From the NCBI GenBank assembly GCA_020974905.1, contig CP087563.1:3472001-3536000 (forward strand): a DNA stretch of 64,000 bases, written 5' to 3'. The stretch comes from Planctomycetes bacterium syqfu. GTDB taxonomy: Bacteria > Planctomycetota > Phycisphaerae > Phycisphaerales > Phycisphaeraceae. A model generated the notes under the pieces. It saw only the letters and a program-made list of their open reading frames with translations, was not told where the DNA came from and searched no databases. This document shows positions 9,340-55,567 of this stretch, piece by piece. Each line of letters begins with the position of its first letter. Position 1 is the stretch's first letter. The position numbers and the translations under genes were made by a program.

Positions 9340-9478
9340 TCAAACGCCATCGGTCTACGATTTCGTCATTCCCGCGCAGGCGGGAATCCAGTGGCATTCT
9401 GTGAACACTTGCAAGTACCACGCGACGCCCGCCTGCGCGGGAGTGACTTAATGTGGTTTTTTTATGACTTCTCAAACC
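9340..9478. repeat. MITE-like repeat family 1, copy B (diverged)
   Basis: The core at 9364-9448 carries TCATTCCCGCGCAGGCGGGA, the conserved CCAGTGGCATTCTG and GCCTGCGCGGGAGTGA. The outer ends (ATACTCAAACGCCAT and TGACTTCTCAAA) are degraded versions of the terminal repeats of copies A and C. It lies in the gap after the GH42-like gene. Confidence 0.75.
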
Positions 9479-10856: not shown

Positions 10857-11330
10857 TTACGCAAAATGCCGAATCACCGTAAACAGCAGGAAGAACAGGA
10901 AGATCGCCCCACCGAAATAAACCCATGTCTGCGTGAGTCCGCCCCCCGAATCGATGTCATCTTCCTCGGAGTTGAGAAACTCGTGATTCGCCCGCGCGAT
11001 GCCAAAGCAGAGCATCATCAACACTGTGGTGATCATAAACAGGCTAAATGCGACATTGCCAAGCAGGTTGCGTAACGCCAGCGAGAGTTTGCCTTGCTCA
11101 TCGGCAGAGACAAAAAAGTGACCGATGTAGCCAGCAAGCATCAGGAAGTTAACCGCTGCCAAAACGTGCGTTCGAATCCGATACATTTTGCCTTTGGAGG
11201 TCCGATGCCGACTATGCACCGTCGGCCCATGCGGGTCCACATCACGCCCACCCTGCACGTCGTAAGACCGATGGTCATACATCCGGTTGAACCAATGTTC
11301 ACGCGGCGGGTTGGGTTTGGGGTCGGACAT
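10857..11330 (-). CDS. Small integral membrane protein, unknown function (paralogue 2)
   Basis: A 157-residue protein with about 50 polar residues first and then three hydrophobic helices (around residues 54-75, 90-110 and 135-155). I do not recognise the family. It is clearly related to the gene just upstream (11341): both have a basic N-terminal part, then a Y-R-R/L-x-T-x-x-x-A-A-x-N-F-L helix. The second helix ends in TTVLM and is followed by FGIARAN or FGLAKRAN, and the last part begins TQ.WV. The start at 11330 lies 10 bases after the stop of that paralogue, so the two are almost certainly co-transcribed. The frame is open further up to 11393, overlapping the paralogue, which argues against the longer form. 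Confidence 0.75.
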   Translation of the reverse strand: MSDPKPNPPREHWFNRMYDHRSYDVQGGRDVDPHGPTVHSRHRTSKGKMYRIRTHVLAAVNFLMLAGYIGHFFVSADEQGKLSLALRNLLGNVAFSLFMITTVLMMLCFGIARANHEFLNSEEDDIDSGGGLTQTWVYFGGAIFLFFLLFTVIRHFA

Positions 11331-11340
11331 CAGCAGGCTT

Positions 11341-11841
11341 TCACATGTCAAAAAGCATGGCAAATTGTATGACGATGACAAACATGAAGACAAGACTGCT
11401 CAAGAGGACCCACACCTGCGTGATCACATGTTCTGCTTCTGCATCATATTTTGCAGGCTGAAATTCATTGGCTCGTTTTGCCAAGCCAAATGCAACGAGC
11501 ATCAAGACCGTCGTCAAGACATAAAGCCACTTTGACAAGAGTCCGACCAGCTTCATCACATCATATATTGTGGTTCCGTCGTCTTTGGTAAAAACAAAGA
11601 AATCGACTACAGCCAACACGACGAAAAGAAAATTGAGCGCTGCGCAAATCTGTGTCGCCAAACGTAGGCGTTTACCATGCAGTGTACACCGATATGATCG
11701 ACTTAAGGATTGGGCCTGATCAAGCTCGGGATAACTTTCTGCCCTGTTTCCCCACAAAGGCCATACTAAAAATTTAATGACCGCTCGGTGTTCTCGTTGT
11801 TGTCGCTTCAACAACGCTTGCTTTCGTTTTGGATCAATCAT
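11341..11841 (-). CDS. Small integral membrane protein, unknown function (paralogue 1)
   Basis: A 166-residue membrane protein, the tandem relative of the gene at 10857. The first 55 residues are basic and polar (KRKQALLKRQQREHR), and three hydrophobic helices follow (about 65-85, 95-120 and 140-164). Shared pieces are ALNFLF, then VLTTVLMLVAFGLAKRANEF and TQVWVLL. No catalytic or metal motif is visible. It lies 74 bases downstream of the RegA-type response regulator on the same strand. Possible roles include a small membrane sensor or accessory factor, but nothing in the sequence decides this. Confidence 0.75.
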   Translation of the reverse strand: MIDPKRKQALLKRQQREHRAVIKFLVWPLWGNRAESYPELDQAQSLSRSYRCTLHGKRLRLATQICAALNFLFVVLAVVDFFVFTKDDGTTIYDVMKLVGLLSKWLYVLTTVLMLVAFGLAKRANEFQPAKYDAEAEHVITQVWVLLSSLVFMFVIVIQFAMLFDM

Positions 11842-11914: not shown

Positions 11915-12490
11915 TCACGCTTCAGACGGTGAATGCTTGGCGAGTTTGCGTTGGAGACTGCGGCGGTGGATGCCCAACACGCGGGCGGCCTGGGAGACGT
12001 TGCCATCACAGTCGGCGAGAATGCGCTGGATGTGTTCCCATTCGACTTGTGCCAAGGAAGGCGCGGTCGTGGGAGCATAGCTTGAACCGTCACTGCTGGC
12101 TTCAAACGCGCCGAGAATCTGATCCGTCGTCGCAGGCTTGGTCAAATAGTCCACGGCACCGGCGCGGATTGCATCCTTGGCAGAGGCAATGCTGCCAAAC
12201 CCGGTGAGCACGACAATGTCGATTTCGTCATCAATGGCAAGAAGCTGCGGGATGAGCTGTAAACCCGATATACCGTTCATGCGCATGTCGACGATCGCGC
12301 GTTGGGGACGGTGTTGGCGAGTCTGCTCAATGGCCTGCTGTGCGTTCTGGGCATGGAGAACCGGGAAATGTCGATCTTCCAAGGCACGAACCAATCGCGT
12401 GCGGAAAGCCTGATCGTCATCAACGACGAGCGTGACAGGCAAAGACTTGGCGGTGGCATGATTCATGGGACTCATCACGGCTAAATTCAT
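11915..12490 (-). CDS. regA: Response regulator, RegA/PrrA/ActR family
   Basis: A 191-residue two-component regulator. The receiver has the acidic pocket D24-D26, phospho-acceptor Asp68, Thr96 and Lys118 (YLTKP). A short linker leads to a Fis-type helix-turn-helix, DCDGNVSQAARVLGIHRRSLQRKL, which is nearly identical to that of RegA/PrrA/ActR. In alpha-proteobacteria these proteins are phosphorylated by RegB/PrrB in response to the redox state of the quinone pool and control respiration and related genes. A RegB-like kinase lies 6 kb away at 18649 and is the likely partner, although the two are not in one operon. The start at 12490 has TGGAG seven bases upstream; ATGs at 12475 and 12466 are alternatives. 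Confidence 0.9.
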   Translation of the reverse strand: MNLAVMSPMNHATAKSLPVTLVVDDDQAFRTRLVRALEDRHFPVLHAQNAQQAIEQTRQHRPQRAIVDMRMNGISGLQLIPQLLAIDDEIDIVVLTGFGSIASAKDAIRAGAVDYLTKPATTDQILGAFEASSDGSSYAPTTAPSLAQVEWEHIQRILADCDGNVSQAARVLGIHRRSLQRKLAKHSPSEA

Positions 12491-12810
12491 TATTACTCCA
12501 TAGGCATGGGCAGGACCTGTACATCATACCTTTGTGTATCATAATGGATCAAACACGGATACAGTGAATCGACGATAAAGAACTGGAAATTCTCTGCTAG
12601 AGTGCTTCAAAATAATGAATCGCCATGCTATCTCTCACCTCGTCATTCCCGCGCAGGCCCGAATCCAGTGGCATTCTGTGCGCACTTGCAAGTTCCACAG
12701 GACTCCCGCCTGCGCGGGAGTGACGGAAAGTGGAGATGCATGATTTGAACTGCTCAAAACACGTGATATAAAGTCGATTCGCCACTCACCCAAAACATAA
12801 GGTCAACACC
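12491..12810. other. Intergenic region holding repeat copy C
   Basis: No gene seen. It separates the divergent response-regulator and nucleoside-hydrolase genes, so it must carry two promoters; half of it is the repeat at 12599-12756. Confidence 0.6.
12599..12756. repeat. MITE-like repeat family 1, copy C (best preserved with A)
   Basis: The left end is AGAGTGCTTCAAAATAATG and the right end ATGATTTGAACTGCTC, which are imperfect reverse complements. The internal GC-rich arms are at 12641-12655 and 12707-12722. It aligns with copy A along its whole length. Confidence 0.82.
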
Positions 12811-13785
12811 ATGCCCCAAAGCAACCACCTGTCCAATCATCAACTTGTTGAACGCATCACCTTGCCTGATCCCAAGGGCTGCGTGCTGGATATGGTTCTC
12901 GATACGGACACGTTTAACGAGATTGATGACCAGTTCGCGCTGGTCTATGCCCTGCTGTCACCGGAGCGCGTGAAGGTGCATGCGGTGTATGCAGCGCCCT
13001 TCGTCAACGCCAAGTCCAAGACGCCTGCAACGGGGATGGCAATGAGCTATGACGAAATTTTTGAACTCTACAAACGGATGCCCACGACGCCGGACGTGCC
13101 GGTGTATCGCGGGTCGGAGCAGTGGATGCGCCAGGCACGTGGTCCGGTGGAGAGTGATGCATGCAATGACTTGATCCAACGCGCGATGTCACGATCAGCT
13201 GATGATGCTCCGCTGTATGTCGTTGCGATTGGCGCACCGACGAACGTGTCCTCAGCGATTGTAAAATGCCCCGAGATCATGGATCGGATCGTGATCGTCT
13301 GGTTAGGAGGTCATGCTGTCAGTCACCCCACCGCGCGTGAGTTTAACCTGGGGCAGGACCTGCTGGCATCGCAGACGCTTTTTGACAGTGGTGTGCCGCT
13401 GATTCGTGTCCCATGTATCCCCACTGCCCAGATGCTCCGAACCACAGTTGCTGAGTTAACGCATTACATCGGCAACAAGAATCCGATGTGCGACTTCCTG
13501 CTTGAGCGTTATGCAGAACATGAAGCGATGGAGACAACGCAAAAGTGCGAGCGTTGGAACGTGGAGCATATCGCTTACTGCAAGGAGATTTGGGATGTGG
13601 CAACCATTGCCATCCTCGTTAATTCAACGTGGTGTCGAAGCATGATCACCCCAAGTCCAATCCTCACACGTGATGTCACATGGAGCATTGATCCATCGCG
13701 TCATCTGATTCGTGACCTGATCTCCATGAACCGTGATGCAATCTTCGGCGACATGTTTTACAAATTGGCGAACATGGGCGGGTGA
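12811..13785 (+). CDS. Nucleoside hydrolase (inosine/uridine-preferring family)
   Basis: A 324-residue cytoplasmic enzyme of the nucleoside hydrolase family, which splits the N-glycosidic bond of nucleosides to give ribose and a base. The calcium-binding motif is present in the form DTDTFNEIDDQFAL (31-44), the variant found in many planctomycete and Bacteroidetes members instead of DTDPGxDDAxAL. A central VAIGAPTNVSSAI and VIVWLGG match the family's core strands, and a late Asp/His loop is harder to place. The ATG at 12811 has AAGG ahead of it. It stands alone, between two repeat copies, so it cannot be tied to a pathway. Some relatives act on other ribosides, so substrate is open. Confidence 0.88.
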   Translation: MPQSNHLSNHQLVERITLPDPKGCVLDMVLDTDTFNEIDDQFALVYALLSPERVKVHAVYAAPFVNAKSKTPATGMAMSYDEIFELYKRMPTTPDVPVYRGSEQWMRQARGPVESDACNDLIQRAMSRSADDAPLYVVAIGAPTNVSSAIVKCPEIMDRIVIVWLGGHAVSHPTAREFNLGQDLLASQTLFDSGVPLIRVPCIPTAQMLRTTVAELTHYIGNKNPMCDFLLERYAEHEAMETTQKCERWNVEHIAYCKEIWDVATIAILVNSTWCRSMITPSPILTRDVTWSIDPSRHLIRDLISMNRDAIFGDMFYKLANMGG

Positions 13786-13848
13786 TTCGCACTCACGAAA
13801 CAAGCAATAAAACACGTTGTGTTTTCAGCAACCCCCTGTGTTGCAGCT

Positions 13849-14002
13849 GGAACTTTGAAATCATTTATTTCTACTTCCCGTCACTCCCGCGCAGGTGGGA
13901 GTCCAGTGGAACCTGCAAGCGTCAACTGTATACCACTGGATTACCGCCTGCGCGGGAATGACGAATTGAGAGATGCATGGAGATAAATTTTTGAAGTGCT
14001 CT
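13849..14002. repeat. MITE-like repeat family 1, copy D
   Basis: Outer ends are GGAACTTTGAAATCATTTAT and its diverged reverse complement, AGATAAATTTTTGAAGTGCTC. The core arms are TCACTCCCGCGCAGGTGGGA and CCGCCTGCGCGGGAATGACG. The middle differs from the other copies (CCAGTGGAACCTGC). Confidence 0.75.
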
Positions 14003-14015
14003 CACACACCGAACC

Positions 14016-14041
14016 AACCCGTGCCACAGGAGTGGCACGGC
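14016..14041. repeat. REP-like hairpin family 2, copy 1
   Basis: AACCCGTGCCACAGGAGTGG then CACGGC, a near-perfect hairpin around CAGGAG. Related sequences are at 55372-55397, 59161-59186 and 59210-59236. Confidence 0.6.
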
Positions 14042-14057
14042 ATTGAAGAACGATCAT

Positions 14058-14097
14058 AAAAAACAGACGCCCCGATCTCAGATCAAGGGCGCCTGTG
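14058..14097 (-). terminator. Rho-independent terminator of the TMEM43-family gene
   Basis: On the minus strand, ACAGGCGCCC pairs with GGGCGTCTGT (one G-U pair) and is followed by six T residues, 25 bases after the stop codon. Confidence 0.82.
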
Positions 14098-14121
14098 TAG
14101 ATGTCGTGTGATGTCGATCAA

Positions 14122-15321
14122 TCAGCCTGCGGGCATGGAGAGTTCCATTTGCTCGATCTTGGCTTTGCGTTTGGCTTTGCCGGCTTTCATGCGGAGGAAT
14201 CCGAGAAAACCAATGACACCTGCGATAGCAAGGATGCTCAGCCCAAGCACAGGTCTAAAGGCGATCCAGCCTATGGCAATGGTGATCAGGGAAAGCATGC
14301 CACCGAGCAGTAGCGCGATCAGGGCGGTACCGCTTTCGACAAGGTTGCCGATGAAGGGAACGACATCAGCAAGAACCGAGAGCGGTTTTAACACGGTGGC
14401 AAAGCCGATGACCATGAGGACGAAACCAAGCCCGCGGAGCAGCCAGGTGAACATGGTGTTTTGCGTCTGTGCCTTTTTGAACATGTCATCAGCAGAGACC
14501 AGGCCCATTTCAACGAGCAGGATATCGCCACCAACATCGGTCTTGTATTTTTCAATGTGATTATCAACTTGTTTGCCAATCACACTGACAGATGTTTCGG
14601 GCTTGATGATCTTGAAATGAACTTTCACATCACCAATCTTCGGACTCTGCGGGGATTGGCCGATGTAGTAACCCCCTGCATGAACCATGGCTTTCTGCTT
14701 GAATTCTTTGGGGAGTTTGCTGGTATCGGAAACGCTGAAAGCTGTTGCGCCTTCGAAAGCACCGACGATGTTTTGCCCCAGTTCATATTCACCGAGAAAC
14801 ACGTTGGAAGCCAACTCACGGTGATCCTCAAACGGGAGTCGGCCGGGGTTTTGGTGATTGGTCTGCACTTTGAACTCGTTGGATGAAATCGCGCGATCCG
14901 ACCAGACCTTGGTGTAGTCATAGGTGGTGACTTTCTTCACGGAACCGCCAAGCTGTTTTTCCTCTTTGGTGGTTTTGGATTCTTTCCACTGATACATCTG
15001 CACTTCACGAATCAATGCCATGGCATTGGTGGCGATGCCGAACTTGTCATCATGCAGAACGTCTTGGGTCTTGGCCACGCCGGAGATATGGATGAGTTTA
15101 TCCTGCAGCGCGGGATCGACTTTTTCCGCCTTGACGGAGATGACACTTGAGCCACCTTCCTTGAGTGTCTTGTACCGTTTGACGGCACGACCTTCATTGA
15201 GGAAAAGCACGGGGAAGGCTGCAACGATCAGGAGGAGCCCAATGAAGATTCCCTTGATTGAATTGCCGATACGACTGCCCCATGAAACGGTGGTAACTTC
15301 GGTGTAGCGATCTGTGGACAT
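14122..15321 (-). CDS. TMEM43 family protein
   Basis: A 399-residue membrane protein of the TMEM43 (LUMA/DUF1625) family, which is known from the animal nuclear envelope and from many bacteria, where its role is unclear. The N-terminal part has a helix (about 22-42, IFIGLLLIVAAFPVLFL) followed directly by NEGRAVKRYKTLKEG, the family's hallmark. A long extracytoplasmic domain (about 45-295) carries the tyrosine- and lysine-rich YQWKESK segment and a YTKVWSD..ISS block typical of the family. Three closely packed C-terminal helices follow (about 300-385), ending in a basic, Lys/Arg-rich tail. AGGAG precedes the ATG by seven bases. It has its own terminator, so it is probably a single-gene unit. 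Confidence 0.88.
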   Translation of the reverse strand: MSTDRYTEVTTVSWGSRIGNSIKGIFIGLLLIVAAFPVLFLNEGRAVKRYKTLKEGGSSVISVKAEKVDPALQDKLIHISGVAKTQDVLHDDKFGIATNAMALIREVQMYQWKESKTTKEEKQLGGSVKKVTTYDYTKVWSDRAISSNEFKVQTNHQNPGRLPFEDHRELASNVFLGEYELGQNIVGAFEGATAFSVSDTSKLPKEFKQKAMVHAGGYYIGQSPQSPKIGDVKVHFKIIKPETSVSVIGKQVDNHIEKYKTDVGGDILLVEMGLVSADDMFKKAQTQNTMFTWLLRGLGFVLMVIGFATVLKPLSVLADVVPFIGNLVESGTALIALLLGGMLSLITIAIGWIAFRPVLGLSILAIAGVIGFLGFLRMKAGKAKRKAKIEQMELSMPAG

Positions 15322-15505
15322 AGTGTCTCCTGAAAATTTGCTGGCGGCAAAGGATCAATGGTTGTTTAGCAACATGAGGGATTCATTCAATTGGTCGGGG
15401 TCCCCGGTACGGATGGGAAGGCGATCTTTGCCATCGGCAAGGACCATGCATGTGATTGTGCAGATATGAAAAACAATGTCAAGTTTGCTTTACATTCAAA
15501 AATGA

Positions 15506-15533
15506 GAAAAAACGTGGCCGCAAAGCCACGTTT
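15506..15533 (-). terminator. Rho-independent terminator of the RNase Z-like gene
   Basis: On the minus strand, AAACGTGGC-tttgcg-GCCACGTTTTTTCTC: a nine-pair stem followed by a T-tract about 30 bases after the stop codon. Confidence 0.88.
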
Positions 15534-15561
15534 GGGAATGTTGGGTTGATTTTGGGCACAA

Positions 15562-16488
15562 TCAATCGCCTTGCATATTGAAGGCTTCCTGTTGCTGGTT
15601 GTAGCGATCGCGATTGGAACGGTGATCCATGAGCAGGAACAACCGCTCGCGGTCTTCAGGTTTGATCGCGTCATTGATCTGTCGGTGTGCCTGGGCCAGA
15701 TGCGTCCGCCGGGACAGATGCGTGAGTACAATGTATTTGGCTTTGGAGCGTTCGAGCAGTTGGACGATGTGGTCCAGATGCAGATGCTTACCCACATTGG
15801 CACGATTGCGGTGATCGTCTTCCAGGAACGTGCATTCGGTAATGAGAATCTGCGCGTTGAGCACATCTTCACGATCAAAGCATGAGCCCCATGTGGTATC
15901 ACCGGTGTAGCACATCAAGGGAATCTCAAGCGTCTGGGTGATGTCTTCGCCCTTTTTCTTGAGTGCAACCAACTGCTCCTGAGGCAGCCCCTGCAACTCG
16001 GCTTTGAGCTTGGAACGTTTTTCGACCACGCAGTACCCCAGTGAGGGCACGGTGTGATGTGTTTCAAACGCACGGAGATAGATCGTGTTCTTGATCTCCA
16101 ACATCTCATCGGGTTCCATGGCTTTGACGTTGTAAGGCGTCTTCTGAGCTTCAATGTCAACCCAGGCACGCATGAGATTGTGGATCGGCTGCTCCAATTT
16201 CGGATGACAGATCACCGTGCCGACGCCCATGCCCTGGAAGTAGCGCTGTGAGTAGTAGTAGGCCAAGCCTGCCGCATGGTCCATGTGCCCATGGGTTAAT
16301 GCGACATAGGAACTCGACAGCGCAGCGCGCGGGCAGCGGCCGATATCAAAACAGGTATCAAGCTCAGGAATCTGCACCACCGACTCCTCGCCGGCAATGG
16401 AGATGCCCTGGACGCGGTACGGTGGCAGATACAGAAAACCCAATTGAGGACGTCGTGGCGGATCGCGTGGGATCATATCAATATCCAA
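15562..16488 (-). CDS. MBL-fold metallo-hydrolase, RNase Z-like
   Basis: A 308-residue cytoplasmic enzyme of the metallo-beta-lactamase fold. The zinc motif THGHMDH is at 65-71; further ligands are expected at the Asp of CYTGDTTW and the His of VLTHLSRR. In addition there is ETHHTVPSLGYCVVEKR, where RNase Z proteins carry a matching His-containing segment. RNase Z removes the 3' trailer from tRNA precursors. The protein lacks clear evidence for the flexible exosite arm, and relatives of this size include other phosphodiesterases and arylsulfatase-like hydrolases. The start may be either of the two ATGs at 16488 and 16476; neither has a strong ribosome-binding site. It has its own terminator. 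Confidence 0.8.
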   Translation of the reverse strand: MDIDMIPRDPPRRPQLGFLYLPPYRVQGISIAGEESVVQIPELDTCFDIGRCPRAALSSSYVALTHGHMDHAAGLAYYYSQRYFQGMGVGTVICHPKLEQPIHNLMRAWVDIEAQKTPYNVKAMEPDEMLEIKNTIYLRAFETHHTVPSLGYCVVEKRSKLKAELQGLPQEQLVALKKKGEDITQTLEIPLMCYTGDTTWGSCFDREDVLNAQILITECTFLEDDHRNRANVGKHLHLDHIVQLLERSKAKYIVLTHLSRRTHLAQAHRQINDAIKPEDRERLFLLMDHRSNRDRYNQQQEAFNMQGD

Positions 16489-16859
16489 TTGTTCGGATCA
16501 GCCTGTTGCTCCACAGTATATCCTCGCAAACGGCTGATCCATCGACGTTTGGGACATTGATCGAAAATGCGTCGTCGGGGGATTTGAACCCCTGGCTCAT
16601 TGCTGAACCGCCACCAGGCACGACCAACATTATGCGCCATATCATGTCTGATTCGACGCCACTGGTCAACTGACGCAGCACACTTGCCCCGATCAATCAT
16701 CGTGAACAAAACAACAACAAAAACTGTCGCCATCAGAATCTATATGACATCAGAGATATTCCCCAACGCCCAATATCTGATACCATTGAACGTTGATTTG
16801 TCCCATTAGGCCCTGATGTACCGCCGGTGGGTTTGACGAAATGATCAGGGAACCATGGC
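16489..16859. other. Intergenic region, no gene seen; contains a tRNA T-arm-like hairpin
   Basis: No convincing coding sequence. On the minus strand, near 16575-16595, a stretch reads GGGG-TTCAAAT-CCCC, the form of a tRNA T-arm, but no matching acceptor, D or anticodon arms could be assembled. The rest must hold promoters of the two divergent flanking genes. Confidence 0.5.
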
Positions 16860-18506
16860 ATGTCCGACACATTGCCCCAGACAACTTCCCAACATGTTCT
16901 GATTCTGGATGAAGATGCATCCATCCGCCAGACGCTCAGCCAGTTGCTTGAGCAACAGGGCTTTACTGTGACCGGGGTCGGTGATCCACAGCAGGCACTG
17001 GAAACCTTGCGTTTCACCCAGACGATCCTGTTGATCATGTCCCAATGCGCTGAACCGCAAGAGACACTGGACTTTCTGGAGCAGGTCAAAAAGTCAGCCC
17101 CCCATGTGCAGGTGATTCTCTATACCGGCGAATGTTCCTTTGAGATTGCCCAGCGGGCGCTGAACCTGCAGGTCTCTGCAATCGTTGAAAAGTCTGAGGA
17201 CACCGGGCAACTGATCAAGACCGTTCACCGTGCTGTCCATCAATATGATGCGCTGGCGTTACAGCGTTCGGAGATGCGCTTTGCCACCATTGTCAATGAC
17301 TTAAGTGACGTGGTCATTCGCTATCTGCCTGACGGGACGATCACCTTTGCCAACCGCGTCTTCATGGACTTATTCGAACTCTCAGCGATCCAGCTCAAAG
17401 GCAAGCAGATTTTTGAGTTTATCCAGCCATCCCAACCGTTGAATCTCAGGCAGTTACTCAAGCAATTCACGCCACACAACACCGTCCATACCATGGATGT
17501 GAAAATGCATCTGCCTTCGCAGCGTCAAGCGTGGTTCCGTTGGACCAACCGGGCGATATACGACAATCAGGATCGCATCCAGGAAATCCAGTCGGCATTG
17601 CATGACATCACCGACGCCATCTACTCAGAACGTTACCTGCTTTCACGGGTCGCTCAGAGTACCAGCCAACTCGATGAGACACATAAACGATTATCAGAGG
17701 AAATTGCCAGCCATCAGCAAGCGCAATCCCGCTTGCGTCAACACGAAGCGGAATTGGCGCACGTGGCAAGGCTAAACATCATGGGGGAAATGGCATCGAG
17801 TATCGCCCATGAACTCAACCAACCCCTGGCAGCCATCGCCAATTACACCCGAGGCTGCATCAAGCGACTTGAACGTGTCGAAGACCTGCCACCCGCGATC
17901 CTCCAGGCCATGGAAGCCGCAGCCCGTCAATCCGACCGTGCGGGACAGATTCTCAGGCGCCTGCGTGACCTGGTGCAAAAACGTCCCACCCAAAAGCAAA
18001 CCCACACGCTGGAGGAGATTTTTCAAGAGGTCGAGCAATTCATCCTGCCATTGCTCCAGAACCATGGCATCGAACTTTCTGTTCGCAATGACCTGGCCGA
18101 GCAGCGGGTCCATGTCGATTCCATTCAGATCCAACAGGTCTTTATCAATCTCATCCGCAATGCCATTGAAGCCATGACACCCGTCCAAAGAGATCACAAC
18201 CTGATCACAGTCCATTTTCATGGCCAGGATGAAAACACCTTGACAGTTGACATCATCGATCAGGGACGCGGTTTGGAAGACAAAAATCCAGCCCATCTCT
18301 TTGATATGTTCGTCTCAACCAATCCGCAAGGCATGGGCATCGGACTTGCCATCTGTCGGACCATCATCGAGGCGCATGGTGGCGGATGCTACGCTGTGAA
18401 TCACCCACAAGGCGGTGCGGTTTTCAGCTTCACGCTCCCGGTACACCTGACAACTGAATCCCATGAAAACACAGGCTCTGCCGCATCACAGGTAACATAT
18501 GACTAG
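16860..18506 (+). CDS. Sensor histidine kinase with degenerate receiver and PAS domain
   Basis: A 548-residue cytoplasmic kinase with no membrane segment. Residues 10-125 form a receiver domain that keeps the acidic pocket (D17-E18-D19) and Lys111 but has Ile-Met-Ser where the phospho-acceptor Asp should be (about 59-61), so it cannot be phosphorylated in the usual way. A PAS domain (about 135-255) follows, then a coiled-coil linker and the catalytic core: H-box MASSIAHELNQPLAAI with His317, the N-box NLIRNAIEAM, a G1 box DQGRGL and G2 MGIGLAICR. The H-box is the FixL/TodS type. The stop codon TAG overlaps the first bases of repeat copy E. It sits just upstream of the RegB-like kinase but the repeat separates them. 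Its target is unknown. Confidence 0.9.
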   Translation: MSDTLPQTTSQHVLILDEDASIRQTLSQLLEQQGFTVTGVGDPQQALETLRFTQTILLIMSQCAEPQETLDFLEQVKKSAPHVQVILYTGECSFEIAQRALNLQVSAIVEKSEDTGQLIKTVHRAVHQYDALALQRSEMRFATIVNDLSDVVIRYLPDGTITFANRVFMDLFELSAIQLKGKQIFEFIQPSQPLNLRQLLKQFTPHNTVHTMDVKMHLPSQRQAWFRWTNRAIYDNQDRIQEIQSALHDITDAIYSERYLLSRVAQSTSQLDETHKRLSEEIASHQQAQSRLRQHEAELAHVARLNIMGEMASSIAHELNQPLAAIANYTRGCIKRLERVEDLPPAILQAMEAAARQSDRAGQILRRLRDLVQKRPTQKQTHTLEEIFQEVEQFILPLLQNHGIELSVRNDLAEQRVHVDSIQIQQVFINLIRNAIEAMTPVQRDHNLITVHFHGQDENTLTVDIIDQGRGLEDKNPAHLFDMFVSTNPQGMGIGLAICRTIIEAHGGGCYAVNHPQGGAVFSFTLPVHLTTESHENTGSAASQVTYD

Positions 18507-18604
18507 AGCAGTTCAAATAATCAATCTTCATACCGTCGTATTTTTCGTCATTCCCGCGCAGGCGGGAATGACGGAAGGTGAAGATTAACTCAGTGCATTG
18601 CTCT
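18505..18604. repeat. MITE-like repeat family 1, copy E (short form)
   Basis: A 100-bp copy with clear terminal inverted repeats: AGAGCAGTTCAAATAATC at the left and TTAACTCAGTGCATTGCTCT at the right. The core is reduced to one hairpin, TCATTCCCGCGCAGGCGGGA followed by ATGA; the middle is missing. It begins inside the stop codon of the kinase gene. Confidence 0.82.
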
Positions 18605-18648
18605 AAACGCCTGTAGCCCGGTAGAAAGTAAAAACGACTGATCCGACT

Positions 18649-19974
18649 TTGCAACGCATCACCCTGACACAACCCACCGACGATCCATCAGCCAGAACCT
18701 TTGAAGGATTGCACACACAACCCAAGGTGTTGATTGTTCTGCGTTGGTTATGTCATCTGCGCTGGCTGGCGGTCCTCGGGCAGGCGTTGGCTATCGCGTT
18801 GGGATACCTGATTCTGCAGTTGCCCTTGCCGATGACCACGCTGGGAATCTGGGTCGGTGTGGCATTGGGTTCGAACCTGCTCTTGACGGTGTACCTGCTT
18901 GGGACCAGTTCCCCACCGCGCGTGTTGGTACCGTTGGTCTTGCTTTTGGATGTGATCCTACTCACGGGCATGCTCGGGTGTACCGGTGGCGCAGCCAATC
19001 CGTTTTGCGTGTTCTACCTGATTCACGTTGCCATGGCTGTGGTCGTCGCGCGTTCCGGTTGGAGTTGGGCGGTGTTGGTGACCACGCTCATCGGCTATGC
19101 GTTGATGTTTTTCGTGGATGATCATATCTTTGCGCCAAGTGATCTACCCTTCTGGGTCCTGCGTGCCGGATCATGGTCCGCACTGGCATTGACGGCTGTA
19201 GTCCTTACGTACTTTGTTGGTCAATTGCGTAGCACATTGCGCAACCGTGAACGGCAGATCAGTTCAATGGCAGACCGCGTCAACCGTGCGGATCGCCTGG
19301 CAGCGTTGACCGCGCTGGCTGCAGGCGCCGCTCATGAGTTGGGATCACCGCTGGGGACAATCATGCTCGCTGCCTCAGAAATGCAGCATCAGATTCAGCA
19401 AGGTAAAACCCCAGCAGACCTGCCGCATCTGCGTGAAGACCTCGACCTCATTGCCCAACAGGCGCAACGTTGCCGACGCATTCTCGACAGCATGAACGCT
19501 GACACCGTGCGCCATGCCGACGAAGATCCAACGCAGTTTGCAGCGTCGCAAATGCTCGATGATCTGAAAGCCGAACTCATGGCAAGTCACCAGGCTCAAC
19601 TCCAGGTTCATGATCGTATGGGACAAACCCCAATCACCACACGCAAACACACCCTGATTCAAGCGCTGAGCATCCTGCTTCACAATGCGCTCGATGCCTC
19701 AGCTGACACGCAAACACCGGTCACTTTAACCATCCAACAAGCGGATAAAAACTGCCAATGTGTCATTCAGGATCAAGGCAGCGGTATCAGTAATCAACAA
19801 TTCCAACACCTTGGCGAACCCTTCCGCACCACCAAGAGTCCACAACAAGGCATGGGCCTGGGACTCTTCCTGGCTCGCCTGATGACCGAACAACTCCACG
19901 GCAGACTCACCATCCACTCCGCCCCCGGCAAAGGCACCATCGCTGTCCTGCAATTTGAAAACCAACCACGTTAA
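18649..19974 (+). CDS. regB: Redox sensor histidine kinase, RegB/PrrB family
   Basis: A 441-residue membrane kinase. Six hydrophobic segments fill residues about 33-190, as in RegB. Three family hallmarks are visible: the quinone-binding heptapeptide GGAANPF (113-119), the H-box ALAAGAAHELGSPLGTI with His229, and the cysteine of QAQRCRRIL (Cys275), which matches the redox-active Cys265 of Rhodobacter RegB. The ATPase core ends in DQGSGI and GMGLGLFLARLM. In known systems RegB senses quinone redox state and oxygen and phosphorylates RegA. The matching RegA-type regulator is at 11915, 6 kb away on the other strand. The start is TTG at 18649, because an in-frame stop lies just upstream; the ribosome-binding site is weak. 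Confidence 0.88.
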   Translation: MQRITLTQPTDDPSARTFEGLHTQPKVLIVLRWLCHLRWLAVLGQALAIALGYLILQLPLPMTTLGIWVGVALGSNLLLTVYLLGTSSPPRVLVPLVLLLDVILLTGMLGCTGGAANPFCVFYLIHVAMAVVVARSGWSWAVLVTTLIGYALMFFVDDHIFAPSDLPFWVLRAGSWSALALTAVVLTYFVGQLRSTLRNRERQISSMADRVNRADRLAALTALAAGAAHELGSPLGTIMLAASEMQHQIQQGKTPADLPHLREDLDLIAQQAQRCRRILDSMNADTVRHADEDPTQFAASQMLDDLKAELMASHQAQLQVHDRMGQTPITTRKHTLIQALSILLHNALDASADTQTPVTLTIQQADKNCQCVIQDQGSGISNQQFQHLGEPFRTTKSPQQGMGLGLFLARLMTEQLHGRLTIHSAPGKGTIAVLQFENQPR

Positions 19975-55480: not shown

Positions 55481-55567
55481 CGTCATTCTCGCGCAGGCGG
55501 GAATCCAGTGGCATTCTGTTGACACTTGCAAGTTCCACTGGACTCCCGCCTGCGCGGGAGTGACGGA
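55481..55567. repeat. MITE-like repeat family 1, copy F (core only)
   Basis: Holds the core GCGCAGGCGGGAATCCAGTG and the opposite arm GGACTCCCGCCTGCGCGGGA. The outer terminal repeats seen in copies A, C and E are not visible, so this copy appears truncated at both ends. Confidence 0.75.

Follow-up and report, generated by a model that had tools for sequence, protein, structure and literature searches.

We analysed a 64,000-nucleotide stretch of the genome of Planctomycetes bacterium syqfu (referred to as the window; bases 3472001–3536000 of a single-contig genome of 7,376,598 bases, or 7.38 Mb, that is 95.8% complete), which carries the genes of a RegA-like response regulator (regA) and a RegB-like sensor histidine kinase (regB). 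In many proteobacteria, RegB/RegA is the system that senses how oxidised or reduced the respiratory chain is. In the window, the two start codons are separated by 6159 bases and the genes lie on opposite strands, and an earlier note on this sequence had placed both genes, their strands and their motifs as we found them (Table 1). The genus of the window comprises four genomes, namely that of the window (G000), G039, G109 and G133.

The best NCBIfam match of the RegA-like protein was the ActR/PrrA/RegA family (NF033791; 174.8 bits, 1.5e-51), with the second-best family reaching 76.8 bits, and Pfam recognised both of its domains (PF00072, 3.6e-25; PF02954, 4.5e-14). Its gene was the only full-length match to the RegA model in the genome, the next match scoring 69.5 bits and none of the others spanning the model. 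The receiver has D68 and K118 and the helix-turn-helix motif HRRSLQRKL occupies residues 175–183, in agreement with the earlier description of this motif and of normal receiver residues. RegA of Rhodobacter capsulatus forms a disulphide at Cys156, within the peptide VYELCDR (PMC9147068). The window protein has Cys161 at this place, in the context ILADCDGN, and among the 22 planctomycete RegA rows that reach this column 17 have Cys and five have Thr or Ser. A sequence search of solved structures returned 3rqi as the best match (4.3e-33).

The RegB-like protein likewise matched the ActS/PrrB/RegB family best (NF033792; 231.5 bits, 1.6e-68), followed by the RegB family of Rhodobacter (NF045988; 157.5 bits, against a cut-off of 570) and then by a family at 96.5 bits. 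No other RegB-model match in the genome was full-length (next match 85.2 bits, none spanning the model). A chance motif was rejected as an explanation, because both proteins match full-length models and are separated by a wide gap from the next matches in the genome, none of which spans a whole model. The start position of regB (TTG in the window) is common to G039 (GTG) and G133 (TTG). The predicted structure (mean predicted local distance difference test score, pLDDT, 77.3; predicted template modelling score, pTM, 0.50) places six helices ahead of the kinase core (residues 25–55, 62–85, 93–112, 118–133, 136–155 and 168 onward); hydropathy rose above 1.6, the cut used, in segments within residues 37–157, while the sixth helix peaked at just 1.52. 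GGAANPF was found at residues 113–119 and the cysteine of QRCRRIL at Cys275, as the earlier note had reported for the kinase, and G113, G114, N117, P118 and F119 were invariant in 17/17 planctomycete rows, window included. In two papers, the GGXXNPF heptapeptide is assigned a role with ubiquinone and Cys265 a role with oxygen (PMC9147068, PMC8191878). When three weaker RegB-model matches from the window's family, those of G127 and G067 and the second match of G133 (one of these three genomes being in the genus), were aligned, leaving out that of G148, they showed SPL where RegB has NPF and Ile in the Cys275 column, and were rejected as RegB. Searching solved structures by sequence retrieved only the kinase cores of FixL chimeras, and among the 50 matches listed in a fold search with the RegB model most were histidine-kinase structures over about 200–260 columns, the size of a kinase core.

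Table 1. Features of the regA–regB region of the window and of the related loci discussed in the text (window positions unless a locus is named).
Feature	Position	Strand	Basis or remark
regA, RegA-like response regulator, 191 amino acids, receiver and Fis-type helix-turn-helix	11915..12490	-	PF00072, PF02954, NF033791
RegA D68 codon, phospho-acceptor aspartate	12287..12289	-	column invariant in 23 aligned RegA rows (one a fragment)
RegA Cys161 codon, place of R. capsulatus Cys156	12008..12010	-	alignment to peptide VYELCDR
regB, RegB-like sensor histidine kinase, 441 amino acids, TTG start	18649..19974	+	NF033792; sole full-length match in genome
RegB GGAANPF (GGXXNPF quinone-site heptapeptide), after third helix	18985..19005	+	alignment
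RegB H229 codon, H-box phospho-histidine	19333..19335	+	invariant in 17/17 rows
RegB Cys275 codon, redox-box cysteine in QRCRRIL (273–279)	19471..19473	+	invariant in 17/17 RegB rows
Kinase 2, receiver-PAS-HisKA-HATPase, 548 amino acids, FixL-like core	16860..18506	+	Pfam domains, NF041777
Kinase 2 Ser61 codon, place of receiver phospho-acceptor Asp	17040..17042	+	alignment; Asp in G039
Kinase 2 of G133	L090:1783-2835		ends after HisKA helices, 350 residues; PAS and phospho-His helix kept
Orphan FixJ-type regulator, window genome	L266:5801-6439, genome 6839836		230 bits, cut-off 255; no kinase among neighbours
ActA and/or ActB-like genes, 9/35 planctomycete loci	L184-L186, L188, L189, L194, L195, L210, L212		L212 ActA only
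Cytochrome oxidase I and III genes, 1/35 planctomycete loci	L192		
Small proteins upstream of regB	L207:9679-10323, L213:5241-5897, L213:6000-6512		homologues in L205, L210-L212, L214, L248
Inosine-uridine nucleoside hydrolase-like gene, bystander	12811..13785	+	PF01156 2.5e-18; adjoins regA in G039 and G109 too
TMEM43-family protein, bystander	14122..15321	-	PF07787 7.3e-77
RNase Z-like metallo-beta-lactamase-fold protein, bystander	15562..16488	-	PF12706 1.8e-11; TIGR02651 75.1 bits, below cut-off 292.95
26-base palindrome in the kinase 2–regB interval, apparently remnant of the 83-base repeat	18547..18572	.	repeat comparison
83-base repeat, five copies	868-950, 9365-9447, 12642-12724, 13880-13962, 55482-55564		

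The two genes are neighbours in the proteobacterial loci examined, as the earlier note had stated for alpha-proteobacteria, and in most planctomycetes examined. Outside the genus, gene order was read from the coordinates of 47 RegA-bearing planctomycetes (32 from a phylum draw and 15 from a class draw, without overlap), in 41 of which regA comes immediately after regB on a common strand (29/32 and 12/15, respectively). The genes were convergent neighbours in two genomes (G212, G562) and far apart in two (G411, G516), and contig ends left the order unresolved in the last two (G322, G599). Among the best 80 named loci of a scan, 23 had a RegB match over 330 residues, and in 19 of these a RegA followed at a distance of up to about 300 bases; the others were L099, L117, L143 and L149, the last three being among the weakest RegB matches, and around the RegB match of L099 (Rhodopirellula solitaria) no RegA was found in 21 kb. 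Given this prevalence of adjacency and the distant genes of G411 and G516, the layout of the window is an exception, yet not unique.

Within the genus, G039 and G109 have regA beside dnaN (PF00712, PF02767 and PF02768 in the window) and the nucleoside hydrolase gene, the same as the window. In G039 the contig with the RNase Z gene and that with kinase 2 (the sensor kinase gene upstream of regB) and regB both stop between those genes, with ends that do not overlap, as expected if G039 has the gene order of the window. In G133, whose assembly is fragmented into 560 contigs and 78% complete, a 4242-base contig carries the gene for RNase Z and then kinase 2, regB and regA, which share a strand. 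The end of kinase 2 is 111 bases from regB, and the contig stops inside regA, so that about 101 residues of RegA are encoded. This fragment is 68–76% identical to the three other genus copies, against 43–54% for the best-scoring rows outside the genus. Because adjacency is the rule outside the genus and G133 keeps the kinase 2–regB–regA row, the split is most simply, by parsimony, explained as derived on the branch to G000, G039 and G109. The ancestor would have had an adjacent regB–regA pair, and regA would have moved (a direction that we infer) to the opposite strand, 6 kb upstream of its partner.

The pair is scattered in the phylum. At thresholds of E<=1e-30 for RegA and E<=1e-45 for RegB, 151 genomes of the order yielded RegA in three and RegB in three, all in the genus of the window, together with four further, weaker RegB-model matches around 1e-36; a RegA match was not found in 148 of the 151, one of which is G133 with its contig-end-cut regA. 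A draw of 392 genomes from the phylum had RegA in 33, RegB in 36 and both in 32, and in G487, a RegA-only genome at these thresholds, a RegB nonetheless adjoins RegA. In a class draw of 298 genomes RegA was found in 17, two of them of the genus, and among 14 control genomes only Caulobacter vibrioides had matches at the thresholds, the sole ones over a cut-off. The earlier note had named a second RegB-like kinase paired with another RegA as a finding that would overturn its proposal, and the genome held no second full-length copy. Among the titles listed in literature searches (10 of 66 in one of them), none concerned RegB/RegA of planctomycetes, in a library that lacks most subscription journals.

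Gene trees of 64 rows, consisting of 14 of the best 80 named loci and otherwise of planctomycetes (the regA fragment of G133 and four RegB-only genomes being left out), placed the genus among planctomycetes of its own class for both proteins; near it in the RegB tree stood G212, which belongs to a different class. The ten proteobacterial rows formed a supported separate group (99/94 for RegB, 99/95 for RegA), and Corallococcus and a Verrucomicrobiales metagenome-assembled genome (MAG) fell outside that group, with the planctomycetes, in both trees. Given these placements, acquisition of the pair from a distant phylum is not supported; the genus may have inherited it vertically, with losses, or received it from within the phylum. 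The tree program warned of deviant composition in the RegB of G000 and G039, and of long branches that meet among the proteobacterial RegA rows.

The respiratory context of the pair was sampled in 35 planctomycete loci from 34 genomes, several of them short contigs and the related genomes not independent of each other. Respiratory genes lay near regB–regA in 10 of these, a lower bound because of the short contigs, and ActA/ActB genes are near the pair in Poly30 (L106) too. We use the names ActA and ActB for what we take to be menaquinol:cytochrome c genes (alternative complex III) near regBA. Their products are a multihaem cytochrome and a twin-arginine translocation (TAT)-type molybdopterin/iron-sulphur protein, with TIGR04519 over its cut-off, and their NCBIfam matches also include the menaquinone reductase subunits QrcA–C, below cut-off. 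Among the 19 named loci L096–L114, genes for oxidase I and III lay within a few kb of regB in seven, all proteobacterial. As respiratory genes accompany the pair in 10/35 loci, respiratory control is the best reading of what the pair would do. Each of the four genus genomes has two matches to PF02621 (MqnA/MqnD-type), pointing to menaquinone made by the futalosine route, and it is on these grounds that RegB may read menaquinone in the genus. In several genomes of the same class, regB is closely preceded by genes for small proteins that have no Pfam match and, by eye, look hydrophobic near their start, and in L210 one of two such proteins lies on the opposite side of the regB–regA pair.

Best family matches, single copies and intact motifs agree with the earlier proposal of a RegB/RegA-type redox pair, and we consider that regB and regA probably encode a working RegB/RegA-like pair whose genes have become separated. 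Several observations weigh against this. Both proteins fall below the equivalog cut-offs of their families (174.8 against 250 bits for RegA and 231.5 against 350 bits for RegB), for which reason we call them RegA-like and RegB-like, and so do all planctomycete matches in the order, phylum and class draws. None of the tested kinds of respiratory gene occurs in the window or in 25 of the 35 planctomycete loci. Pairing is not strict, since RegB occurs in four genomes of the phylum draw (G257, G273, G418 and G489) that gave no RegA match at E<=1e-30, among them the 93%-complete G489 with its strong RegB (1.4e-65). In G109 (88% complete) RegA is present and RegB was not found, with a contig that stops inside the RNase Z gene. 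The trees also differ in detail, the genus joining G212 in the RegB tree and falling within the f106 genomes in the RegA tree. In approximately unbiased (AU) tests, the RegB data spoke against a grouping of the genus with f106 without G212 (p-AU 0.013), a p value that is optimistic because this grouping was named after the RegB tree had been seen, while the other groupings put to the RegB data came mostly from the RegA tree. The RegA data (182–185 columns) did not reject the RegB placement (p-AU 0.29–0.45). The trees therefore show no firm conflict, RegA being too short to decide on separate origins of the two proteins.

If the pair works as proposed, RegB, as a six-helix membrane kinase, would respond through GGAANPF to the redox state of the (mena)quinone pool and through Cys275 to oxidation. 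A reduced pool would lead RegB to autophosphorylate at H229, the phosphate would pass to D68 of RegA, and phosphorylated RegA would bind DNA via its Fis-type helix-turn-helix and set the expression of respiratory genes. The phosphotransfer, the signal and the target genes are what we infer. The locus combines an unusual gene layout with a known kind of system, that is, familiar biochemistry with an interesting gene history.

Kinase 2 matched FixL best (NF041777; 230.8 bits against a cut-off of 850, over residues 281–529 only), with TtrS next. It has a PAS domain and no hydrophobic stretch resembling a membrane helix (hydropathy peak 0.97), and its predicted structure was too poor to use (mean pLDDT 49, three sequences). 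The earlier note regarded its receiver as dead, which agrees with Ser61 at the place of the phospho-acceptor Asp in the window and with the degenerate receiver of G133 (ambiguous at this place, with Asn and then Asp residues; Pfam finds neither a receiver nor an ATP-binding domain). In G039 the Asp is present, so that this is no fixed design. Matches to kinase 2 at 1e-45 occurred in 24 of 198 class genomes, window's included, with at most a few candidates scored per genome; among the candidates scored, only the window's own and that of G010 (32%) were near full length. In G010 the homologue is followed directly by a FixJ-type regulator (256.5 bits, the only FixJ-type gene scored to pass the cut-off of 255), and a FixJ-type gene also follows the kinase 2 match in G560 (230.4 bits) and in G563 (receiver and GerE by Pfam). 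Such a neighbour was rejected as a rule for relatives of kinase 2, being found in three of four neighbourhoods and not in G592, whose kinase is without a receiver. The window genome has 13 FixJ-model matches at 1e-18, among them an orphan gene between DNA polymerase III delta-type and nucleotidyl transferase genes, placed alike in G039 and G133 and 49.7% identical to the FixJ-type regulator of G010. Kinase 2 most likely belongs to the FixL type, with a FixJ-type regulator encoded elsewhere in the genome as its original partner.

This bears on whether kinase 2 and RegB both feed RegA, with kinase 2 using RegA since its own receiver is dead, as the earlier note had suggested in terms of crosstalk. 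The three genus genomes that cover the region all have kinase 2 immediately ahead of regB, in line with regB–regA in G133, and two of the three genus receivers look unable to act. These points favour the suggestion. Loss of the receiver does not by itself call for RegA, because an N-terminal kinase receiver is unneeded for transfer to a separate regulator; the core is FixL-type, the closest full-length homologue found beyond the genus, in G010, adjoins a FixJ-type regulator, an orphan FixJ-type gene is retained in the genus, and the receiver Asp is present in G039. Given the G010 pairing and the orphan gene, the FixJ-type regulator is a better candidate partner than RegA, and a kinase 2 that feeds RegA seems unlikely. 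The kinase 2 of G133, with PAS and a His-bearing HisKA helix, no ATP-binding domain and no Pfam receiver, would suit an accessory of RegB, and its degenerate receiver slightly helps such a role. A FixL-type kinase might have been captured by the RegB/RegA pair in this genus and be turning into an accessory subunit, having lost the receiver Asp in one species and a recognisable receiver and the ATP-binding domain in another but kept PAS and the phospho-His helix. As a catalytically partial kinase it would then modulate the RegB signal or relay it to RegA in a menaquinone-based respiratory chain, a reading that we regard as rather improbable.

The distance and opposite strands in the window, the imperfect agreement of the gene trees and the four phylum genomes with RegB and no RegA match could also mean that RegB and RegA are no longer partners, RegA being served by another kinase and RegB serving another regulator. 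Against this stand the single copies of both genes, their presence at thresholds in the genus alone among the 151 order genomes, intact phospho-sites and motifs, and adjacent regA and regB in G133, which leave very little room for such a divorce. Alternatively, the regA beside dnaN may have been acquired separately from another planctomycete and have replaced the operon copy (xenologous replacement), in line with the grouping of the genus RegA with G516 and G566 (99/90) and with RegB data that oppose such groupings (p-AU 0.004–0.027). The RegA data do not reject a grouping of the genus with G212 (p-AU 0.41), and the identity of the G133 operon fragment to the three moved copies, well above that to RegA outside the genus, indicates that operon and moved copies belong together; replacement of this kind therefore appears quite doubtful. 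The preferred reading thus remains that of a working pair whose genes moved apart.

Between regA and regB, TMEM43, RNase Z and a second kinase lie as the earlier note had listed them, along with a nucleoside hydrolase-like gene that it omitted. The RNase Z-like gene adjoins kinase 2 in G133 too. The window has five copies of an 83-base repeat whose ends are inverted relative to each other (GTCATTCCCGCGCAGGC and its near complement), one on either side of the nucleoside hydrolase gene beside regA. The interval between dnaN and regA (10857–11841) holds two small overlapping genes for mutually related hydrophobic proteins without a Pfam match; values for their best matches in G109 and G039 lie at 28–95%, versus 93–99% for dnaN.

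A RegB/RegA-like redox pair would thus occur well beyond the Proteobacteria, scattered in Planctomycetota and sometimes beside menaquinol-oxidising complexes. Whether GGXXNPF kinases respond to menaquinone in the way that they do to ubiquinone can thereby be put to the test, and the occurrence of split and adjacent layouts in one genus offers a natural test of pair specificity after genes part.

The closest known systems are the proteobacterial RegB/RegA pairs (PrrB/PrrA, ActS/ActR, RegS/RegR, RoxS/RoxR), which, as described (PMC8191878, PMC9147068), share with the window pair a kinase that has six helices, GGXXNPF, an H-box and a redox-box Cys, a RegA with receiver, Fis-type helix-turn-helix and a Cys ahead of it, and a one-to-one pairing. 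The window pair differs from them in scoring below both equivalog cut-offs, in belonging to planctomycete rows outside the proteobacterial group, in having its genes 6 kb apart on opposite strands with an extra FixL-like kinase upstream of regB, and in a host with genes for futalosine-route menaquinone. The pairs of other Planctomycetota, Corallococcus and the Verrucomicrobiales MAG are 29–41% (RegB) and 45–61% (RegA) identical to those of the window; unlike these, they are mostly adjacent and co-directional, and some lie beside ActA/ActB-like or cytochrome oxidase genes. Kinase 2 resembles FixL/FixJ and TtrS/TtrR in its core, which matches FixL best and then TtrS, and in the FixJ-type gene elsewhere in the genome. 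It departs from FixL/FixJ in its N-terminal receiver, in a score under the FixL cut-off, in a PAS domain for which haem binding is not shown, and in a FixJ-type gene that is not adjacent and falls short of the FixJ cut-off (230 of 255 bits).

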